Assembly: GCF_003984645.1 (NCBI RefSeq)
Contig: NZ_RWKI01000009.1
Coordinates: 1 to 64,000, forward strand
Source of the DNA: Variovorax sp. MHTC-1
GTDB lineage: Bacteria; Pseudomonadota; Gammaproteobacteria; Burkholderiales; Burkholderiaceae_C
Direction: 5' to 3'
DNA length: 64,000 nt
The position numbers and the translations under genes were made by a program. Numbering within the stretch: the stretch's first letter is position 1; each line of letters opens with the position of its first letter. Positions 19,795 to 31,376 of this stretch are shown piece after piece. The notes beneath the pieces were generated by a model. That model saw only the letters and a program-made list of their open reading frames with translations. It was not told the DNA's origin and searched no databases.

Positions 19795-19828
19795 CAGGCG
19801 CTTGTTGTGCTGCGCCTGCTTTATTTTT
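19795..19828 (+). terminator. Rho-independent terminator after the algZ/algR-like/AI-2E operon
   Basis: The arms CAGGCGC (19795-19801) and GCGCCTG (19812-19818) are perfectly complementary and are followed by the T-rich CTTTATTTTT. It lies 94 bases after the transporter stop and immediately beside the stop of the convergent glucan synthase gene. No T-run serves the minus strand. Confidence 0.7.
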
Positions 19829-22800
19829 CAGCCGACGCGCAGCACCGCGTGCTCGGGCAGGGTGCGCCAGGTGATCCATTCGCTTCTGGCGATGTGGTGC
19901 GTGGGCACCGCGGCGGTGGTGGCGTCGCCGTACTGCACGACCAGCTCGCGGCCCTCGAGCCGCAGCGTGATCTCGAAGCCCGGCCAGTGTGCCGGCACGC
20001 GTGGCGTCAGCGAAAGCCGGTCGCCGCGCACCGCCAGGCCCAGCAGGGTTTCGACGGCGGCACGGTGCAGCCATGCGGCCGAGCCGGTGTACCAGCTCCA
20101 GCCGCCGCGGCCGACATAGGGCGCGGCGCCGTAGATGTCGCCGGCCATCACGTAGGGCTCGAGCTCGTAGGCCGGGCCGCGTTCGGGATGGCGCGCACGG
20201 TGCGCCGGGCTCAGGCCTTCGAAGCTTTGCCACGCAGCTTCGGTGTCGCCGGTGAGCGCCTGCGCCATCAGCGCCCACACGGCGGCGTGCGAATACTGGC
20301 CGCCGTTCTCGCGCACGCCCGGCGGGTAGGCCTGGATGTAGCCCGGGTTGTTGGGTGAATTCGCCAGCGGCGGATGCAGGAGCTGCAGCAGGCCGGCGGA
20401 CTCGTCGTGCAGATGGGCCTTCATCGATGCGAGGGCCTGGCTGGCGTGGGTCGTGTCCGAGGCGCCCGAGAGCACCGACCAGGCCTGCGCGATCAGGTCG
20501 ATGCGACATTCCTCGTTGAGTGCCGAGCCGAGCGGCGCGCCGTTGTCGAAGAAGGCGCGCCGGAACCAGGCGCCGTCCCAGCCGGGACCGTGCAGGGCGG
20601 CGATCCAGCCCTTGCGCGCGGCCTGCCAGCGCGCGGCGCGTGCCTTGTCGCCGCGCGCCTCGGCCAATGGGGCGTAGCGCTCGACCACGCTGCAGAGGAA
20701 CCAGGCGAGCCAGACCGATTCGCCGCGGCCTTCGTGGCCGACGCGGTTCATGCCGTCGTTCCAGTCGCCGGTGCCCACCAGCGGCAGGCCGTGGACGCCG
20801 GTCGCGAGGCTGCGGTCGATCGCGCGCGCGCCGTGTTCGTACACGGTGGCCGTGAGGCCGCTGGTCTGCGGCGCGTAGTAGGCGTCCTCGGCGCCCGCCG
20901 GAATCTCGGGGCCGTCGATGAAGGGCACGACTTCGTCCAGCACCGAGCGGTCGGCCGTGACCTCGACGTAGTGCGAGGCGGCATAGGGCAGCCACAGCAG
21001 GTCGTCGGAGAAATGCGTGCGCACGCCGGCGCCGCCGGGCATGTGCCACCAGTGCTGCACGTCGCCCTCGGGGAACTGGCGCGCCGCGTTGACCAGGATC
21101 TGCTCGCGCAGGCGCGCCGGATCGGTGAGCGCAAAGGCCATCGCGTCCTGCAGCTGGTCGCGAAAACCGAAGGCGCCGCCGGCCTGATAGAAGCCGGCCT
21201 TCGACCAGAGCCGGCACACCAGTGTCTGGTAGATGAGCCAGCGGTTGACCAGCGCATCGAACAGCGGATCGGGCGTGCGCACCTGCAGGCGGCCGAGCAG
21301 CTCGTTCCAGAAGCCGCGCGCCTCGGCCAGCGCCTCGGGCACGTCGCGCTGCTGCCAGCGGCGCGCCATCTGCATCGCGGCCTCGGGGTTGTCGGCCTGG
21401 CCCAGCATGAAGGTGAAGCTCGCACTCGCGCCGGCGGCGAGCGGGAAATCGCCGGCCACGGCGGCGCAGGCATCGAGGCCGCTGCCGGCACGCTGGGCCA
21501 GCGTGTCGGGCACTTCGACCGCGCCGTGTCCGGCGAAGAATTCGCTGCGTTCGCAGGTCCATTGGGTCGCGCCGTTCAAGCCCGCGAGCGCGGCGAAGCC
21601 GGTGCTGCCGCCGAATCCGGTACTCGACTCGCGCTGCTGGCCGAACACCGCGGGCAGGTTCTCGGGCTTCCAGGTGTGGACGGTGCGGCGTTCGCCGCGT
21701 GCCGCGCCCAGCTGCCACTCGATCATCGCGAGCGCGCGCAGCCGGCGCGTGCCGGTGCCCTCGTTGCGCACCTTGACGTGCACCAGCTTCATGCGTTCGT
21801 CGCGGTCGGCGAAGAAGGTGGTTTCCAGTGCAACGTTGCGATGCAGGCATTCGAATACCGTGTAGCCCTGGCCGTGGCGCACGCGGTGCCGGGCGGCCGC
21901 GCCGCCGCGGCTGGCCGGCGTGAGCGGCAGCAGCTCGCGCGAATCGAGGTCCTGCAGCAGGTAGTGCTCGAAGGCCGGGTCCCGCACCGGGTCGTTGGAC
22001 CAGGGCGTGAGCTGGTGCATGCGGCTGTTGACGGCCCAGGTGTAGCCGGTGCCGGATTCGGAGATCTGGAAGCCGAAGGAGGCATTGGCGATCACGTTGA
22101 TCCAGGGCCGCGCCGTGCGCTGGTTCGGATCGACCTCGAAACGGAACTCGCCGCTTTCGGCATCGAAGCCGCCCTGCGGCGACGTCACCGCTTCGGCGAG
22201 CTCGGCCGCCGGCGGAAGCAAAGAGAGCTGGACCCGCGGCCCGAGGTCTTCCGCCGCCGGGCCGGCCGAGGCCGTGGTGTCGCGCAGCGCCGCCACCTGC
22301 ATCTCGAGCGAGCGGCCGTCGGCCGTGAACACCGCGCGCGCCAGGCTCGACAGCGCCGCTTTTTCCGAGGGCGCCACTTCGTGGTCGCGCAGCAGGTAGA
22401 AGCCGGCCGCGTCGTTGCGCGGAAAGCTGTTCTGCGTCTGCTGCGCGACCCGGCTGCGCAGCGCCTCGATCTCGCGCTGCAGCGGCATCAGGTAGGAGTT
22501 GGGCTCGCCATTGAGCACCACCAGGTCGCAGGCCACGCCGCCGAAGCCCCACCAGGGCTGGGCGCGCAGCAGCGTGTCGACCAGGCCCTTGCCGGCGATC
22601 GAGTGGATGTGGACCAGCACGATCGGCTTGTCGCCCGAGATCCCGAAGCGCCAGATCTGGCGCAGATCGATGAGCCCGCGGTCGCGCATCGGGCGCGGCG
22701 TGGTGTAGGTCAGGATGGTCGTCAGGTCCTGCAGCGCCTGGTTCTTCGCCGGGTCGATGCTGAGGTCGCGCAGTCGCACCTGCGCCAGCGTGGCCGCCAT

Positions 22801-25800
22801 GCGCGTCGCGCGCTCGACGTGCATCGGCTGCAGGTAGCGGTCGATGCTGGGCATCAGGGCTTCCACATCCTCGTCGGCCGCGGTGGCGAAGGTCACGCGC
22901 GCCGTGCCGCCGGGCGGGATCTCCAGGCGCACGCGCAGGCAGGCGACGGGATCCAGCCCGTTGACCGGCGTGCCGTCCGGCGCCGCCGATTGCGGATCGA
23001 GGGTCGGCGTCGCGAGCGTGCGGTTGCGCCCGATGAAGGCGCGCCGGTCGGTCATGCAGTCGACCGACAGCACCTGCGCATCGACCGAGGCCACGAAGTG
23101 CGCGGCGGCCACCACCGGGTCGCCGTGCAGGCGCGGCTTGCGCGTCAGCAGCAGCGCGCGCCAGCCGGGCTCCCAGCGGCTCTCGATGAAGAGGTTGGCG
23201 AAGGCCGGGTGCGCCTCGTCGGCCTTGGGGTCGGAGAGTACCGGTTCGAAGTACGAGACGAGTTCGAGCGTACGCGTTGCGCTGCCGGTGTTGTGCAGCG
23301 CGACCGTGCGCAGCTCGGTGTCGTCTTCGGGGCTGATCAGCACCGTGGTGCGTGCCTGCAGGCCGGGCCCGCTGGCATCGAACTGCACCTGGTCGGCCAG
23401 GAAGCGCGCGCGGTAGCGCCACTCTTCGCCGGGCGCGGGCAGGGCGGTCAGCGAGGTGATCGTCGCGCTGCCGATGTCCCGCACATAGAAGAAGGTGCCG
23501 TAGCCGTCGCGCAGCGGATCGTCGCGCCAGCGGCTCACGTTGAACGAGCGCCAGCGGCTCACGCCCGCGCCGTTGGCGCGCAGCGCCACGGTGTAGTGGC
23601 CGTTCGACAGCAGGTGGGTGGGCTGGAAGCCGGGCTCGTGAGGATCGACCACGCGCGGCTGGAAGATCGGCGGCGCCTCGCCGGTGCTCGGCTCGGGCGG
23701 CATGCGCGGATCGGCGCTGCCGATGATCTGCCGCGGCGTGCGCTCGTGCAGCAGCGACTCGTGCGCCTGCACCAGCGGAGCGCTGCCGAACCAGCGGCGC
23801 GGCGCGCCGTCGCACGCCACGTTGCACAGTGCCACCAGCGCCATGCCGTGGTGATGCGCCATGACGTTGTGCACCACGGTGAAAGGCTGGCCCGCGGGCT
23901 GGCGCGAGGCGGTGAAGTCGATCGCGTCGAAGAAGCCGAACTCGCCGCGCGCTCCCAGCGATTCGAGCAGCTGCAGATTGACCACTGCATCGGCCGGCGC
24001 GAGCACAGCGGCCATCATGGTGGCGTAGGGCGCGACCACGCGGTCGGTCGGCGGCGTGCGGCGCAGCGCCAGCCGCGGCACGCCGAAGGGCGAGTACTGG
24101 AAGGCGAGCGAATGGTCCTGCGCGAAGTAGGCCGATTCCGAGACGCCCCAGGGCAGGTTCTGCACGTTGCCGAAGACCTGCTGCTCGCCGATCGCGGCCA
24201 GGTTGGCCACCTGCAGCAGGCCGCCCACCGGCTCCGGCATCACCAGCGTGGGCATCAGGTATTCGAACATCGAGCCCGACCAGGACTTGAGCCCGGGCCG
24301 AACGCCGACCGAGAGAAAAGGCCGCCCGAGCGCCATCCAGTGGCGCCGTGGCACGTCGCCCTTGGCGATGGCGAGAAAGCTCAATAGCCGCGCTTCGGAG
24401 GCGAGCAGGTCGTAGTAGCTCGCATCGAGCTCGTTCTCCTCGACCCGGAGGCCGATGTGGAACAGGTGGCGCTTGGCGTCGTAGAGCCCGCGGAAATCCA
24501 TGCCCGCGCACAAGGCCTCGCAGCGCAGGGCGAGGGCTTCGAGCCGCGCGCCGGCGCCGCTGCCGTCGGCCGCGAAGCTGCGGCAGGCCTGGGCCACGGC
24601 CAGCAGGTGGCCTGCAAGGTTGCCGCTGTCGACGCTGGACACGTAGGCCGGCAGCAGCAACGCGAGCGATCGCGTCTCGTACCAGTTGTAGAGATGGCCC
24701 TGGTGCTTGTCCATGCGGTCGATGGTGTCGAAGGTCGCCTCGAGCCGGGCGGCGAGCGCCGCGGTGTCGAGCCAGCCGAATTCGCGCGCGCAGCAGCAGG
24801 CCAGCAGGTACATGCCGATGTTGGTCGGCGAGGTGCGGTGCGCGATGGTGGGCTCGGGTTCGAACTGCAGGTTGTCGGGCGGCAGATGGTTGTCCTCGGG
24901 GCCGACGACATGCTCGAAGAAGCGCCAGGTATCGCGCGCCAGCGTTTCGAGGTAGCTGCGGTGCTCGGCGGCCAGCGTGTCTTCGTTGCCCTCCGGTACG
25001 CGGCTGCCCCACCAGGCTGCGACCGGCGCCAGCGCCCACAGCCCGAACAGCAGCATGCCCAGCCACGGATGCGGGCTCCAGAACGCGGCCACGGCGAGTG
25101 CGATGCAGACCAGGCTCGCGATCGCTCCGCTGCGCAGGAAGGGCGCCAGGTGGTAGCGGGCCTGCGCCTGGGCCTGGGCAGCTGTGGTCCATTCGAGCAG
25201 GTGCCGGCGGCTCACCGCCAGGCGCCACGCGGCACGCACCGTGGCATCGAGCAGGAGCCGGGTCTGCGCGGCCAGCTGGACGAACTGCCAGGCGGCGCCA
25301 GCCATGGCGCGCAGCAGCTCGGTGGAACCGACGTCGAAGAAATGGCGCAGCTCGATCGAGCGCCGTGTCGGCACCAGCCCCGCCAGGGCGCCGAGCATGG
25401 GGCCGAGCATCAGCGCGGCCGCGACGGCCGCGAGCGCCCAGGGCAGCGGGAACGCATCGGTGAAAACGACCCACGCGAGCAGCGCGGTCGACGCCGGAAT
25501 CACCAGCGCGCGGCGCAGGTTGTCGCTCATCTTCCAGAGGCCCAGTGCATCGATGCCGAAGCGCGGCGCGCGCAGCATCAGCGGCAGCAACTGCCAGTCG
25601 CCGCGCGTCCAGCGGTGCGCGCGCGAGGCCGCCACGCCGGCGTGATGCGGATGGTCTTCGATCAGTACCAGGTCGCTCACCACGCCGCAGCGCGCCACCG
25701 TGCCTTCGAGCAGGTCGTGGCTCAATACCGCGCCTTCGGGCAGGCGGCGGTCCAGCGTCGCATGGACGGCGTGCACGTTGAGCAGCCCCTTGCCGGTGAA

Positions 25801-28002
25801 GGAGCCGCTGCCGAACACGTCCTGGTAGAGGTCGGAAGCGCTGCTGCTGTAGGGGTCGAGCCCGCACTGGCCGGCGAACAGCCAGTGGAAGAAGGAGCGT
25901 TCGTTGCGCGCCGGGAAAGGCGTGACGATGCGCGGCTGGAAGATGCCGAAGCCCCTCGCCACGCTGCGGCTGGCCATGTCGAGCTGCGGCGCATTGAGCG
26001 GATGGGCCGCCACCGCGACCAGCTCGCGCAGTGCACCGGGCGGCAGGCCGGTGTCGCTGTCGAGCGTCAGCACGTAGGGGATGCGATCGGCCAGCCGCAG
26101 GCCGGGTGCCATCGGCAGGAAGCCGCTGTCATCGCCGGTGGCCAGGAGGCGCAGCAGCATCTCGAGCTTGCCGCGCTTGCGCTCCCAGCCCATCCAGCGC
26201 TGCTGGGTGTCGCTCCAGCTGCGCGGTCGGTGCAGCAGCACGAAGCGCGGCGCCGCGTCCAGCGGCGCGGGATAGCGATCGTTGAGCGCCGCGATGCGTT
26301 GCAGCACGTCGTCGAGCAGGGCGCCGTCGTCGGGCAGCGAAGACTCGGCGGCATCGGCCCAGTCCGTCAGCAGCGCGAACTGCGCCTGCGCCTCGCGGTT
26401 GGCGAGCCAATGCAGTTCGAGCCGCTGGGCGAGCTGGGCGTTGGCCGCTTGCGAACTCAGCAGCGCCGGAACCACGACCAGCACCCGGTGAGCTTCGGGA
26501 ATGCCGTGCGCGAAATCAAGCCGAGGCAGCGGCTGGACCCGGGTCGATTCGGCCATGATGCGGTGCACCAGCGCGATGACCGCTTCGGACAGGGGCCAGG
26601 CGAGCAGCACGAGCGCAACCAGCGCTTGCCAGGGCGCATCGGGCCAGCCGCTGCCGTTCAGGCCCTGGACCGCCGCCGCCAGCAGCAGCGCGGTGCCTGC
26701 CAGCACGGCCAGCACATAGAGCGTCGGGCGCCAGGCGCGCAGGGCGTTCCGGCGTGGCGCGATGCGTACCGCGCCCGTGCCATCCGCCGGCGCCAGCGCG
26801 ACGCTCAGGGCCGGGAGGCCCTGTCCGAACAGGTAGTAGCCGGCAGTGCTTTCGGCCCGCGACCAGCGGCTCTCCGCATCCCCGTCCTCAGGCGAATCGC
26901 TGGCCGCATCGAAGGCCAGGCGCACCACGGCCTGCGCGACTTCGTGCTCGGACCGCCGGCTGCTGCGCGCCACCTGTTCCATCGCATGGGTGATCTGCTG
27001 GCGCGTGAGCTCGCTTTCGCGCGCGAAGCTGGGCAGCTCGCGCAGCACGCGCAGGGAGCGGCTCACCGGCTCGATCAGGTCGGCCCATTCGACCTGGCCG
27101 ATCATGCGCAAGGTGGTGATGATGTTCCCGACCGTGAGGTTGGCTGCAGCCTGCGTCGTCTGTGCTTCGTGGACCAGCGCCGGGCCGTTCGGGCAATGCT
27201 GCTCGGTCCACTTCAGAAGCGGCGGCGCGTCCTCGCCGTGCTCGACCGGCAGCTGCAGCCAGAGCTGCGTGAGGTAGCGTTCCTGCATGCCGCGGGCCTG
27301 CAGCGCGCGGTAGAGCACGTCGAGATCCTGCACGGAAAGCCTGTCGGCCGCGTCCCACGCCGCATGCGCGACCTCGCGCGCAACCTTGCTTTCTGCAATG
27401 CCCTCGGCCACGCGTCGCAGGTTCTCCAGGAGCACCACGCGCAGCGTGGTCGGCAGCGCCCACAGTTCGCCGAGCGTGAGTTCGTCGATGTCCTGGTAGG
27501 CGTTGAGGAAGGCGGTGAATAGCTCGTTGTTCAGCACGCTGTCGGTATGCGCCACGTAGGCCCAGGCGATGCCGTAGACGCGCGGCAACCCTGCGAGCGG
27601 TGGTGCCGCGAGCTTGGGCAAGCGCGCGTAGTAGCTGCGCGGCACGCCTTCGCGGATCTGTTGCAGCTGCGCCTCGACAAGGTGGAAGTTGTCGAGCAGC
27701 CATTCGGCCGCCGGCGTGACATAGCGCCCGCTCTGCGAGATCAGCGCGATGTAGTCGAAGGCGCTGCGCAGCGACTCGAGGTTGCGGTCGACCCGCGGGA
27801 AGAAGGGCGTGGCGTCGACGCGCGACTCCTCGCTGCGCACGACCTGCGCCCGGGCCAGGCTGTGGCCGTGCTGCTCGAAGCGCTGCGCGCCGAACAGCTC
27901 GGCACGGATCGGCGGCTCGACAGCTTCGTGGGGCCCGAGGAGAAGATTGCGCGCGTACCGGCTGAGGGATTCGAGCCGGTCGACGACCGCCGCGGCGCTC
28001 AA
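19828..28002 (-). CDS. ndvB: Cyclic beta-1,2-glucan synthase (NdvB/ChvB-like)
   Basis: About 2724 residues from TTG 28002, close to the usual 2800 of ChvB/NdvB. Visible in order are the N-terminal block TPAAEWLLDNFHLVEAQL; a GT84 glycosyltransferase region within hydrophobic segments, with TLDSDTGLPPG near residue 647 and RWTRGDWQLLP near 797; a central glucoamylase-like part; and a C-terminal GH94 phosphorylase-like domain with GTGDWNDGMNRVG near 2411, carrying the presumed catalytic Asp. The family polymerises UDP-glucose on itself, adjusts chain length and cyclises the glucan, which goes to the periplasm for osmotic adaptation and host interaction. The start is inferred: TTG overlaps the stop of the small upstream gene (TTGA). 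Longer in-frame extensions only shadow that gene. Rhizobial/Brucella-type synthases usually work with an exporter (NdvA/ChvA), which is not in this window. Confidence 0.9.
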   Translation of the reverse strand: MSAAAVVDRLESLSRYARNLLLGPHEAVEPPIRAELFGAQRFEQHGHSLARAQVVRSEESRVDATPFFPRVDRNLESLRSAFDYIALISQSGRYVTPAAEWLLDNFHLVEAQLQQIREGVPRSYYARLPKLAAPPLAGLPRVYGIAWAYVAHTDSVLNNELFTAFLNAYQDIDELTLGELWALPTTLRVVLLENLRRVAEGIAESKVAREVAHAAWDAADRLSVQDLDVLYRALQARGMQERYLTQLWLQLPVEHGEDAPPLLKWTEQHCPNGPALVHEAQTTQAAANLTVGNIITTLRMIGQVEWADLIEPVSRSLRVLRELPSFARESELTRQQITHAMEQVARSSRRSEHEVAQAVVRLAFDAASDSPEDGDAESRWSRAESTAGYYLFGQGLPALSVALAPADGTGAVRIAPRRNALRAWRPTLYVLAVLAGTALLLAAAVQGLNGSGWPDAPWQALVALVLLAWPLSEAVIALVHRIMAESTRVQPLPRLDFAHGIPEAHRVLVVVPALLSSQAANAQLAQRLELHWLANREAQAQFALLTDWADAAESSLPDDGALLDDVLQRIAALNDRYPAPLDAAPRFVLLHRPRSWSDTQQRWMGWERKRGKLEMLLRLLATGDDSGFLPMAPGLRLADRIPYVLTLDSDTGLPPGALRELVAVAAHPLNAPQLDMASRSVARGFGIFQPRIVTPFPARNERSFFHWLFAGQCGLDPYSSSASDLYQDVFGSGSFTGKGLLNVHAVHATLDRRLPEGAVLSHDLLEGTVARCGVVSDLVLIEDHPHHAGVAASRAHRWTRGDWQLLPLMLRAPRFGIDALGLWKMSDNLRRALVIPASTALLAWVVFTDAFPLPWALAAVAAALMLGPMLGALAGLVPTRRSIELRHFFDVGSTELLRAMAGAAWQFVQLAAQTRLLLDATVRAAWRLAVSRRHLLEWTTAAQAQAQARYHLAPFLRSGAIASLVCIALAVAAFWSPHPWLGMLLFGLWALAPVAAWWGSRVPEGNEDTLAAEHRSYLETLARDTWRFFEHVVGPEDNHLPPDNLQFEPEPTIAHRTSPTNIGMYLLACCCAREFGWLDTAALAARLEATFDTIDRMDKHQGHLYNWYETRSLALLLPAYVSSVDSGNLAGHLLAVAQACRSFAADGSGAGARLEALALRCEALCAGMDFRGLYDAKRHLFHIGLRVEENELDASYYDLLASEARLLSFLAIAKGDVPRRHWMALGRPFLSVGVRPGLKSWSGSMFEYLMPTLVMPEPVGGLLQVANLAAIGEQQVFGNVQNLPWGVSESAYFAQDHSLAFQYSPFGVPRLALRRTPPTDRVVAPYATMMAAVLAPADAVVNLQLLESLGARGEFGFFDAIDFTASRQPAGQPFTVVHNVMAHHHGMALVALCNVACDGAPRRWFGSAPLVQAHESLLHERTPRQIIGSADPRMPPEPSTGEAPPIFQPRVVDPHEPGFQPTHLLSNGHYTVALRANGAGVSRWRSFNVSRWRDDPLRDGYGTFFYVRDIGSATITSLTALPAPGEEWRYRARFLADQVQFDASGPGLQARTTVLISPEDDTELRTVALHNTGSATRTLELVSYFEPVLSDPKADEAHPAFANLFIESRWEPGWRALLLTRKPRLHGDPVVAAAHFVASVDAQVLSVDCMTDRRAFIGRNRTLATPTLDPQSAAPDGTPVNGLDPVACLRVRLEIPPGGTARVTFATAADEDVEALMPSIDRYLQPMHVERATRMAATLAQVRLRDLSIDPAKNQALQDLTTILTYTTPRPMRDRGLIDLRQIWRFGISGDKPIVLVHIHSIAGKGLVDTLLRAQPWWGFGGVACDLVVLNGEPNSYLMPLQREIEALRSRVAQQTQNSFPRNDAAGFYLLRDHEVAPSEKAALSSLARAVFTADGRSLEMQVAALRDTTASAGPAAEDLGPRVQLSLLPPAAELAEAVTSPQGGFDAESGEFRFEVDPNQRTARPWINVIANASFGFQISESGTGYTWAVNSRMHQLTPWSNDPVRDPAFEHYLLQDLDSRELLPLTPASRGGAAARHRVRHGQGYTVFECLHRNVALETTFFADRDERMKLVHVKVRNEGTGTRRLRALAMIEWQLGAARGERRTVHTWKPENLPAVFGQQRESSTGFGGSTGFAALAGLNGATQWTCERSEFFAGHGAVEVPDTLAQRAGSGLDACAAVAGDFPLAAGASASFTFMLGQADNPEAAMQMARRWQQRDVPEALAEARGFWNELLGRLQVRTPDPLFDALVNRWLIYQTLVCRLWSKAGFYQAGGAFGFRDQLQDAMAFALTDPARLREQILVNAARQFPEGDVQHWWHMPGGAGVRTHFSDDLLWLPYAASHYVEVTADRSVLDEVVPFIDGPEIPAGAEDAYYAPQTSGLTATVYEHGARAIDRSLATGVHGLPLVGTGDWNDGMNRVGHEGRGESVWLAWFLCSVVERYAPLAEARGDKARAARWQAARKGWIAALHGPGWDGAWFRRAFFDNGAPLGSALNEECRIDLIAQAWSVLSGASDTTHASQALASMKAHLHDESAGLLQLLHPPLANSPNNPGYIQAYPPGVRENGGQYSHAAVWALMAQALTGDTEAAWQSFEGLSPAHRARHPERGPAYELEPYVMAGDIYGAAPYVGRGGWSWYTGSAAWLHRAAVETLLGLAVRGDRLSLTPRVPAHWPGFEITLRLEGRELVVQYGDATTAAVPTHHIARSEWITWRTLPEHAVLRVG

Positions 28003-28217
28003 GCGACGGCGTACAGCCCGATGACGAGAGCCACGGCCAGGCAGGCCATCGTCACGATGCGGCCTGCCAGGGCCGAGCGCGCCCGCTGCAATTCGCTCTT
28101 CACCGTGAACCATCGCCCCTGTGCGCGCGCGCAATGTCGCATGTGCGATGCCAGCGCGTCAAAGTCGCCGCTCACGAAGTCGACCTTGGCATGGGTAAGA
28201 GTGTGCGGGGAAGACAT
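27999..28217 (-). CDS. Small membrane protein overlapping the glucan synthase gene
   Basis: A 72-residue protein with ATG at 28217 preceded by AGGAA at good spacing. The first 45 residues are hydrophilic (FDALASHMRHCARAQGRW) and the C-terminus is one hydrophobic helix (IVTMACLAVALVIGLYAVA), so it is predicted to be a tail-anchored inner-membrane protein. Its TGA overlaps the proposed TTG start of the glucan synthase gene. No family is recognised. Context suggests a co-expressed partner or translational-coupling leader for the synthase, as inference only. Confidence 0.65.
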   Translation of the reverse strand: MSSPHTLTHAKVDFVSGDFDALASHMRHCARAQGRWFTVKSELQRARSALAGRIVTMACLAVALVIGLYAVA

Positions 28218-28334: not shown

Positions 28335-28374
28335 GTAGGAAACGGCGTACACGGCGCCTCTCGCCGGTTCCTAC
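28335..28374. repeat. Hairpin overlapping the ppc stop codon
   Basis: The arms GTAGGAAACGGCG (28335-28347) and CGCCGGTTCCTAC (28362-28374) pair at 12 of 13 positions around a 14-base loop. On the minus strand the hairpin begins at the ppc TAG stop itself. There is no T-run, so it is either a 3'-end stabiliser, a weak terminator or a dispersed palindromic element placed at the gene end. Confidence 0.6.
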
Positions 28375-31322
28375 CCTGTATTTCGCAGCCCCGCCGCGAC
28401 GCCGTTGATCGACATGTGGATGCCGCGCTGCAGGCGCTCGTCGTCCTGTCCCGCGCGCCAGCGGCGCATCAGCTCGACCTGCAGGTGATGCAGCGGATCG
28501 ATATAGGGAAAGCGGTGGCGGATCGAACGCTGCATGTCGACATTGCCTTCGAGCCGCTGCTTCGCGCCGGTGATCAGTGTCAACGCGTCGGAGGTGCGGT
28601 GCCACTCGGCATCGATCATCGAGAACACCTTCTGGCGCAGCCTGCGGTCGGCCACCAGTTCCGAATAGCGCGAGGCCAGGGCCAAGTCGCTCTTGGCGAG
28701 CACCATGTCCATGTTCGACAGCAGCGTGCTGAAGAAGGGCCACTGCGCAACCATGCGCTGCAGGAGCGCCTGCCGCTCCTTGCGCGCCGCGGCGCTGCCC
28801 GCGGCCGCGAGGAACTGCTCGATCGCCGAGCCGAAGCCGTACCAGCCCGGCAGCGTGAGCCGGCATTGGCCCCAGCTGAAGCTCCAGGGCACGGCGCGCA
28901 GGTCTTCGATCTTGCGGCTGGGGTTGCGCGAGGCGGGGCGCGAGCCGATGTTGAGCTCGGAGATCTCGCGGATCGGCGTGGCGCTGAAGAAGTAATCGCC
29001 GAAGCCGGGCGTTTCATAGACCAGTTCGCGGTACGCCGCCATGCTGGCCGCCGAGAGCTCGTCGGCCGCCGCCAGAAAGCTGGCAGGCGCGGCCTTGGCC
29101 GAGGGCAGCAGGGTGGCCTCCAGCGTGGCGGCAACCAGGGTTTCGAGGTTGCGCCGGCCGATCTCGCGGTTGGCGTACTTGGAGCCGATCACCTCGCCTT
29201 GTTCGGTCAGGCGGATCTGGCCGCGCACGGTGCCGGGCGGCTGCGCGAGGATCGCCTGGTAGCTCGGTCCGCCGCCGCGTCCCACCGTGCCGCCGCGGCC
29301 GTGGAACATGCGCAGGCGAATCGATGAGGATGCTGCCCCCACGCTCGGCGCTGCGCTCGTCGATTTCTTGTTGAGCTCGTCGAACAGCGCCACCAGTGCG
29401 GTGCCTGCGCGATAGAGCTCCCAATTGCTGGTGAAGATGCCGCCGTCCTTGTTGCTGTCGCTGTAGCCGAGCATCACGTCCTGCTCGGCGCCCGAGCGCT
29501 GCACCAGGGCCTGGATGCCGGGCAGGGCGTAGAAGGCGCGCACGATCGGCGCCGCGTTGCGCAGGTCCTCGATGGTTTCGAAGAGCGGCACCACGATCAG
29601 GTCGCAGGTCGCGTTGCCGAGCGCAGCGCCGGGCCGACCCAAGCAAGCGAGCGCCCCCTCGGTGGGCAGCGAGGACACGCCAGTGCCGAGCGTGGGGGCA
29701 TCATTGCTCAGTGTTCCGCGCAGCAGGCCCACTTCCTTTTGCAGAAGAAGCACTTCCAGCAGGTCGCTGACCGTTTCGGTGTGGCTGATGATGTAGTGGC
29801 GTATCGCCGCCGCGCCGAAGCGTGCGCGGGCCTTGCGGGCAGCGGCGAAGATCGCGATCTCGCTTTGCGCCAGCGGCGAATATTCGACATCGGGCACGCG
29901 CAGCGGCCGGGCGTCGTCGAGCAGGCGCAGCAGCAGGGTCTGCTTGGCCTCCTCGGCCAGCGCGGCGTAGTCGGGCTCGATGCGTGCGGTGGCGAGCAGT
30001 TCGGCCACCACGGCCTCGTGCTTGTCGGAGCTCTGCCGGAGGTCGACCGTCGCGAGATGGAAGCCGAACACCTCGACCGCGCGGATCAGCGGGTGCAGGC
30101 GCTGCGCGACCAGCACCGCGCCGTGCTTGTCGGCGAGCGACTCCTCGATGGTGCGCAGGTCGGCCAGGAATTCTTCGGCCTGCGCGTAGGGGTTCTGCGG
30201 CGCGACCGCATGGCGCGCGGCCTCCCCGCCGGTGAGCTCGCGCAGCGTGGCCGCCAGGCGCGAATAGATGCCGGTCAGCGCGCGGCGGTAGGGCTCGTCG
30301 ACACGGTGCTCGCTCTTGTCCGGCGAGCGCTCGGCCAGCGCCTGCATCTCGACCGACACGTCGACCAGCGTGGCCGACAGAGACAGCTCGCCGCCGAGGA
30401 AGTGCACCTCGGTCAGGTAGTGGCGCAGCGCCAGTTCGGCCTGGCGGCGCAGCGCGTACTCGAGCGTTTCGGCCGTGACGTTGGGATTGCCGTCGCGGTC
30501 GCCACCGATCCACTGGCCCATGCGCAGGAAGGGCGCGATGGCGCCCTGGCCCAGCGCCGCTTCGAGGTCGGCATAAACATGCGGGATCTCGCGCAGGAAG
30601 GTGGCCTCGTAGTAGCTCAGCGCGTTCTCGATCTCGTCGGCCACGGTGAGCTTGGAGAATCGCAGCAGCCGCGTCTGCCAGAGCTGGGTGACGCGCATGC
30701 GCATCTGGCTTTCGTTCTCGGCGTACTCGCGCGGCGTCAGCGTGTCCTTCTTTCCCGCGAAGGCATGCTGGCGCAGCTTGATCTCGTCGCGCGCCGTGAG
30801 CAGCTGCGCGATGGCGCGCTCGGCGTCGAGGATGCTCTTGCGCTGCACCTCGGTCGGATGAGCGGTGAGCACCGGCGACACATAGCTGTGCGCGAGCGAC
30901 TCGACTACGGCCTTGGGCGAGATGCCCGCCTTGCGGATGCGTGCCAGCGCCACCTCGAGGCTGCCCTCGGCGTTCTCGCCGGCGCGTTCGGCCTCGGTGC
31001 GGCGCCGGATCTGGTGGCGGTCCTCGGCCAGGTTCGCCAGGTGGCTGAAGTAGGTGAAGGCGCGGATCACGCGCACCGTCTCGGCCGCGCTCAGTCCCTT
31101 GAGCAGATTCTTGAGCGCGCGGTCGGCCGCATGGTCGGCATCGCGGCGAAAGGACACCGAGAGCGTGCGGATCTTCTCGACCAGCGCATAGCTTTCTTCG
31201 CCTTCCTGCTCGCGGATCACGTCGCCGAGGATGCGCCCGAGCAGGCGGATGTCGTCGATCAGCGGCTGTTCGTCGCTGTTGCGGCGCCTGTTTGCAGGAG
31301 CGGCGGGTTGGCTCGTTTTCAT
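28371..31322 (-). CDS. ppc: Phosphoenolpyruvate carboxylase
   Basis: A 983-residue protein from ATG 31322, which has a strong upstream GAGGAGAG. It carboxylates phosphoenolpyruvate to oxaloacetate, replenishing the citric-acid cycle. Signatures are [15 protein letters not shown] with the catalytic His near residue 165, [11 protein letters not shown], and [17 protein letters not shown] with the second active-site block; the C-terminus ends NTG as in most PEPCs. It is longer than E. coli Ppc (883). Two extra segments, about 30 residues ([15 protein letters not shown] and following) before [15 protein letters not shown] and about 12 ([14 protein letters not shown]) before the FHGRGG loop, are encoded by copies of one dispersed repeat inserted in frame. 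It diverges from hemC with 54 bases between start codons. Confidence 0.96.
29334..29359 (-). repeat. Short copy of dispersed repeat inside ppc
   Basis: A 26-base segment whose two ends equal the two ends of the longer copy at 29618-29700, in the opposite orientation. The shared core TGCCCCCACGCTCGGC reads on the plus strand here. It is followed by GCTGCGCTCG, the complement of the other end of the long copy. It looks like the long element with its middle deleted and encodes the Ala/Ser-rich insert in Ppc. Confidence 0.65.
29618..29700 (+). repeat. Long copy of dispersed repeat inside ppc
   Basis: About 83 bases running from CGAGCGCAGCGCCG (29618-29631) to GCCGAGCGTGGGGGCA (29685-29700), with an internal imperfect palindrome around GCCCCCTCGGTGGGC. 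From memory this resembles an intergenic repeat common in Comamonadaceae genomes. Here it is translated as part of phosphoenolpyruvate carboxylase without breaking the frame. Confidence 0.65.
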
Positions 31323-31376
31323 TCGAAATCTCTCCTCGTCAGGCATGGCCACTCGCACTCGTTGTTGCGATGCAAC

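Follow-up and report, generated by a model that had tools for sequence, protein, structure and literature searches.

Rickettsia palindromic elements (RPEs; Ogata et al. 2000) are short, hairpin-forming mobile repeats found both between genes and in frame within conserved genes, and the product of an RPE-bearing gmk gene is reported to be translated and active (PMC10969869, PMC2229807). Here we describe a repeat in Variovorax sp. MHTC-1 that resembles RPEs in being a short, structured mobile repeat with intergenic copies plus in-frame copies in conserved genes (16 of 94 sites, 15 of them in known families). In contrast to RPEs, its host is free-living, GC-rich and of another class, its length is about 82 bp compared with 105-150 bp, and one class of its copies is flanked by ATGA. 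Inspection of the 94 site edges by eye also revealed no constant CGTC, the end attributed to R. conorii RPEs in PMC3733652. Since the CGTC end tag and the Rickettsia host are both lacking, the element was not filed as an RPE, and the comparison is one of description only.

Two other groups of repeats invite comparison. Like REP/BIME repeats (PMC2817692, PMC3733652), the element is palindromic and high-copy with some copies in tandem, and as in REP/BIME-RAYT systems a Y1 transposase gene was present, one in each of 13 genomes tested. It differs from REP, a 20-40 bp palindrome with a GTAG tag whose copies flank the RAYT gene, in its length of about 82 bp and its three hairpins, and no GTAG tag was seen. 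Like the MITEs ERIC, Correia/NEMIS, RUP and BOX (PMC10969869, PMC2229807), it is short and non-autonomous and can fuse in frame to ORFs; such MITEs can show duplicated target letters, to which the double ATGA at one site of the element may or may not correspond. Terminal inverted repeats were not seen by eye. Unlike these MITEs, one class appears to use an ATGA overlap as its site, and the arms of its terminal hairpin differ among copies but remain complementary. By analogy, the element would work like RPEs, yet in a free-living bacterium and with end and site features of its own. The repeat itself is apparently undescribed; no earlier account was found in the open-access literature searched.

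Results

Two in-frame copies of the repeat lie in ppc

The locus lies in a 64,000-nucleotide stretch of the MHTC-1 genome, referred to as the window, with the following features:

28371 to 31358, minus strand: ppc, phosphoenolpyruvate carboxylase, 995 codons from the first possible start (Pfam PF00311, NCBIfam PRK00009)
29618 to 29700, minus strand: insert A, full-length element, 29 residues read in frame, net addition of 87 bp
29574 to 29600, minus strand: conserved strand LIVVPLFET, directly after insert A
29334 to 29359, plus strand, opposite to insert A: insert B, element shorter by 57 nt, net addition of 30 bp
29289 to 29306, minus strand: conserved FHGRGG, directly after insert B

Translation of ppc may in fact begin at a later ATG, at about 31322, and FHGRGG belongs to the glycine-rich catalytic loop of Ppc. 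The 16-mer TGCCCCCACGCTCGGC, which the initial annotation had noticed in opposite orientations inside ppc, matched exactly at 29334-29349 (plus strand) and 29685-29700 (minus strand). No other match appeared in the window when up to two mismatches were allowed; shuffles gave a mean of 0.29 matches, and 4 of 100 reached two. Six exact copies were present in the whole genome (5.88 Mb, 125 contigs), and the reversed 16-mer used as a control had none in the same 5.88 Mb. On the ppc strand insert B reads TSAAPSVGA. Both inserts keep the frame, with ppc open throughout 28371-31358 and both net additions multiples of three when measured against the insert-free Variovorax ISL-79 (L109), the nearest sampled relative. 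These results confirmed the in-frame double presence of the repeat in ppc as first seen. Beside ppc, the minus strand of the window contains an open frame of 2768 codons (19828-28134) that appears by eye to be of the cyclic beta-glucan synthase type.

The short copy equals the two ends of the long copy joined, as had been proposed: the 83-nt copy minus exactly 57 nt leaves 26 nt, and the joint is ambiguous over four nucleotides (CGGC). The loop preceding LIVVPLFET (loop A) of strain ISL-3 has also lost 57 nt, the same size as the loss in the window loop preceding FHGRGG (loop B). The joints of these two 19-codon losses differ slightly and lie between CTCGGC and CCCGGC, and the pair fits slippage between internal repeats; inserts may thus be trimmed in frame by deletion at internal short direct repeats. 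That the short copy is an unrelated chance match is hardly credible. Its score with a covariance model of the element family was not significant on its own (12.3 bits, E = 0.39), so its membership derives from its exact sequence; against chance, it equals the long copy minus a single block, and full-length copies in the same orientation lie at loop B in strains E41 and YR216. Its 24-mer also occurs exactly only once in 5.88 Mb, with two places matching at three mismatches, one of them the hrpA copy, and the same counts led us to reject a separate short mobile form. Insert B is best read as an independent insertion on the opposite strand that afterwards lost 57 bp. The idea of one repeat inserted twice holds in that both inserts are of the same family, with the history of the short copy corrected.

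The repeat belongs to a structured, high-copy family

The element is approximately 82 bp long, with three hairpins and covarying pairs. Searches of the MHTC-1 genome revealed at least 56 matches to an 85-nt consensus (40 of 186 candidates scored) and at least 147 matches at E ≤ 0.1 to a covariance model built from 29 copies (150 candidates scored). Twelve other genomes contained from 0 to at least 75 matches at E 1e-4, with matches in 11 of the 12. At the level of the order, at least 33 of 300 genomes, the window's own included, reached E 1e-4 under stricter filters with 14 candidates each. All of these counts are lower bounds, since a limited number of candidates was scored per genome (150, 40 with the consensus, 14 at order level). 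The element was also present in eight plasmid records, at one place each, including Burkholderia, Azoarcus and others; no match was detected among the phages searched. The family had been described as an intergenic repeat of Comamonadaceae: most copies do lie between genes, and relatives in the order-level search and on plasmids reach beyond that family.

The model matched insert A at 29611-29701 with 92.2 bits, a score that is not independent as insert A was among the 29 sequences used to build the model. The DNA fold of insert A alone was no more stable than its shuffles, and the structure of the element therefore rests on covariation. Among 111 distinct matches from the MHTC-1 genome, 15 of 17 pairs showed changes on both sides and 95.5% of cells were paired compared with 84.7% in shuffles (0 of 500 shuffles reached any of five measures); the alignment was fitted to the model and hence biased towards it, and slid controls were far lower. 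The arms of the third, terminal hairpin vary between copies yet are complementary, with a mean stem of 5.94 compared with 4.02 when arms were re-dealt (0 of 1000), as measured in the 49 of 84 single copies that could be parsed by pattern. No Rfam family scored above its gathering threshold in the window, and in six element loci Rfam gave only a sub-threshold miRNA match (E = 0.65).

The ppc inserts are scattered among relatives

We examined the distribution of the inserts in ppc loci from relatives (100 genomes matched; 30 loci read in that search). The Ppc tree was built from 110 loci, of which L105 and L115 were skipped, leaving 108 rows, 90 of them distinct; the nearest named relatives were Variovorax. 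Measured from anchor to anchor, loop A is 9 residues long in most rows compared with 38 in the window, and loop B mostly 22 residues compared with 32; the anchors were fixed. Full-length or decayed insert A was found in 7 of the 90 distinct rows, with one further shortened copy (L039), and an element-like insert B in 3. Covariance-model searches of 87 of the 110 ppc loci gave loop-A matches in L038, L043, L059, L119 and L121, whereas the loop-B matches, in L080/L081 and L106, were on the opposite strand. The decayed loop-A insert of L122 and the shortened insert of L039 both fail the model. L058, L092, L101 and L142 are among rows with loops a few residues longer whose sequence is unrelated to the element. 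In other Variovorax/Xenophilus lineages the same two loops contain longer copies, with orientation and frame unchanged. Both loops are empty in ISL-79 and CF079, the closest sampled relatives of the window ppc. The inserts are therefore lineage-specific, in keeping with insertion into Ppc as in-frame coding segments, and neither segment is an ancestral loop. The family meets ppc in a second way in Variovorax JS1663, where a copy scoring 50 bits is situated immediately downstream of the ppc match (L045:4888-4978).

A single ancestral insertion in each loop, followed by repeated precise loss, is unlikely. It would account for near-identical loop-A junctions in the window, WS11, WDL1 and L119 (junction letters alike among several carriers count against independent insertion) and for the unusual letters common to the murD inserts of MHTC-1, G005 and G015. 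However, carriers are scattered over the tree of 90 distinct rows, where the loop-B carriers represent three distinct clades and the loop-A carriers three or more positions, L059 being set apart in a separate clade as well, and the exact loop length would need to have been restored several times. Insert A differs between the window and WS11 at 5 of 90 nt compared with 64 of 272 flanking four-fold sites, a divergence so much lower that it favors recent independent insertion or homogenization over old common descent.

The inserts probably form disordered loops

By sequence, insert A falls between residues 495 and 500 of E. coli Ppc and insert B about eight residues before FHGRGG; both loops neighbor conserved strands. 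A structure was modeled from an alignment of 31 rows, from which L113 (in-frame stop), L100, L114 and L116 were left out; the model (mean pLDDT 74.8, pTM 0.77) matched the E. coli structures 1jqn and 1fiy. The pLDDT was below 50 at residues 553-580 (insert A) and 669-676 (insert B), between ordered elements, and also at 688-698, 712-729 and parts of 794-833, catalytic loops included. Since the catalytic loops are likewise of low pLDDT, the model is silent on how the inserts pack, and low confidence is no more than a hint of disorder. The inserts probably add disordered loops to Ppc, as to the other proteins below, that would be tolerated rather than selected.

We regard it as very improbable that the inserts are adaptive, forming a selected new regulatory or interaction loop of Ppc. 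Separate lineages were hit at the same two loops, always in frame, and both loops adjoin conserved strands, one of them leading to FHGRGG. Opposed to this are the decay and shortening in L039, L121 and L122, the absence of inserts from most of the 90 rows, the low model confidence at the inserts and the presence of similar peptides in 15 other open frames of unrelated kinds.

In-frame copies occur in about 16 genes

The genomic context of the element was analyzed at 94 merged sites of the MHTC-1 genome (about the weakest quarter of the 147 matches fell outside this set), with the coding frames of both flanks scored by a codon table derived from 23 open frames in the window. Sixteen of the 94 sites were open, in-frame insertions, 15 of them in recognizable gene families; ppc is one of about 16 genes so affected. 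By family models, the 15 are ppc, a FemAB-like gene, Rep helicase, MoaE, a PRK10985 hydrolase (YheT-like), TlyA, an aminotransferase, Mpl, PutA, MurD, HrpA, a 2Fe-2S oxidoreductase subunit, UvrA, an AidB_N acyl-CoA dehydrogenase and an AKGDH/AceE-type protein; several of these frames are truncated where the retrieved stretch ends, and several fall below the curated cut-off of the family model. The sixteenth site (L200) had no family match. In several of these proteins the family match breaks at the element. The FemAB-like gene (L165:1248-1581) contains four head-to-tail copies with an 81-bp period, giving four 27-residue units and about 110 residues added in frame.

The frames used are not evenly distributed. 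Each of the six plus-sense coding copies encodes APTL, or APRL in one case, and the peptide terminates in SVGA or SVGG in 8 of the 10 minus-sense copies. For every one of the six element frames, between 48 and 64 of the 69 non-coding copies are open; 14 of the 16 coding copies nevertheless use two frames (naive binomial probability 1.2e-5, for a test chosen after the data were seen), which give Pro/Gly/Ala/Ser-rich, Arg-poor peptides.

Of 30 murD loci read, those of MHTC-1, G005 and G015 carried a 27-residue insert and the remaining 27 lacked it. The tlyA insert was present in MHTC-1 and G003 and absent from the 10 others of 12 loci read; among the matches listed for the other 77 matching genomes, none spanned the insert site. 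MHTC-1 has its tlyA and loop-A inserts in common with G003, both lacking in G063 and G013, and its murD insert in common with G005 and G015, not G013 or G003. Such patchy sharing among close strains weighs against our main reading and could also arise if the inserts had spread through ppc, tlyA and murD by very short homologous recombination tracts instead of repeated transposition, an explanation to which we give little weight. One 100-nt window beside the tlyA insert was 90% identical to the carrier G003 compared with 84% to G063 and G013, and the one holding ppc insert A was 92% identical to WS11 and 91% to ISL-79. In most other 100-nt windows, however, MHTC-1 was nearer to non-carriers, and the loop-B inserts occur in distant genomes that are themselves rich in copies.

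One class of copies is flanked by ATGA

The remaining sites comprised 23 between minus-strand genes (in the sense of the element), 37 between plus-strand genes and 18 mixed. In the minus-strand class, ATGA was present at the left edge of 21 of 23 sites and at both edges of 15, compared with 2-3% in random windows. The plus-strand class had ATGA at the left edge in 3 of 37 sites and at both edges in 1; here 15 of the 37 had TCAT at their right edge, which is what genes running in the opposite direction would give, and the left edge was less regular. Coding sites had ATGA at the left edge in 1 of 16 and at both edges in none. The rarity of ATGA at coding and plus-strand-class edges confines the ATGA rule to one class; the edges of coding insertions may have decayed, or such insertions may arise by a different route. 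The start of the downstream gene in the minus-strand class lies a few bases past GTGGGGGC, judged from its letters to resemble a ribosome-binding site.

Several related arrangements were observed. Two ABC-transporter genes of an annotated Variovorax plasmid are separated by a related copy that occupies the whole gap, and some tandem arrays, for example L159, are joined by ATGA. In a subtype on the other strand (L161:1501-1591, L201:1004-1091, L205:1612-1702), the variable stem itself forms a strong ribosome-binding-like end, GGAGGCCTGATG, ahead of ATG.

Only at C1:126345 were truly empty sites of an intergenic copy read; 78 of 81 genomes had a match there, and 30 of the loci were covered. The element was present in MHTC-1, G063, G003 and G072 (L283-L286) in the arrangement ATGA-element-ATGA. 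Seventeen loci (L296-L312) were empty, with GCATGA followed directly by the next gene in a TGA/ATG overlap. At this one site the double ATGA could be a target duplication of 4 bp. It could equally mean that an element with ATGA as its own end was inserted after a single ATGA, as with single-strand transposons of the IS200/IS605 kind, in which case the second ATGA would be the element's own.

Nine more loci at this place (L287-L295) hold other sequence. Seven of these, from Variovorax (L287-L291, L294, L295), contain related 55-bp inserts (GCCGC...GGAGGTTTCC...) at the same ATGA overlap; they start like the third hairpin of the element and end with GGAGG before ATG, stopping just before ATGA. 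L292 and L293 hold yet other sequence.

No mobilizing enzyme was found; the RAYT route was tested via PF01797 in 13 genomes. An origin from RAYT is not supported, as in none of these 13 genomes did an element match lie within about 1.5 kb of the PF01797 gene, and G036 holds a PF01797 gene yet no element match. A 230-residue Y1 transposase gene with an HFH motif (L184:1174-1866) is RAYT-like by eye and has no element of the family nearby.

Discussion

Both ppc segments probably arose by insertion of short, structured mobile repeats from a single family, mostly harmless between genes and occasionally tolerated within them. The element has a high copy number, a covarying structure and a lineage-specific presence, with a double ATGA at one intergenic site whose relatives are empty, and it lies in frame in ppc, murD and tlyA, each uninterrupted in most sampled relatives. 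The earlier reading, in which an intergenic repeat family had entered ppc as coding inserts, is supported; both conditions named as refuting it, rarity of the repeat elsewhere in the genome and conserved ancestral loops, proved false.

We infer that the element moves in trans and that one class prefers the ATGA of overlapping stop and start codons. Insertion there would do little harm, since the upstream gene retains its TGA and the downstream gene its ATG, and the element would supply the downstream gene with a G-rich ribosome-binding-like sequence (GTGGGGGC-NNN-ATG). As the element is GC-rich and its frames are mostly open, an occasional landing in a gene could survive, given a length that is a multiple of three, a loop position and one of the two favored frames.

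A broader proposal is more tentative, and we place it somewhat short of an even chance: that this is a Burkholderiales-wide structured mobile family addressed to the ATGA overlaps of operons, splitting the overlapping genes while sparing the stop of one and the start of the other, bringing its own ribosome-binding-like end and seeding genes with in-frame disordered loops. The modular relatives with another 3' part at the very same ATGA suggest that the address, not the sequence, may define the class.

The ATGA pattern, if true, would be an unusual target choice that spares both neighboring genes. The effect of such inserts on enzymes would become directly testable in a free-living soil bacterium that has about 15 recognizable insert genes, including enzymes of the cell wall, of repair and of carbon metabolism, and whose close strains have empty alleles. 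If the reading of ATGA as an address is true, the family would represent a standing source of protein variation in free-living bacteria.
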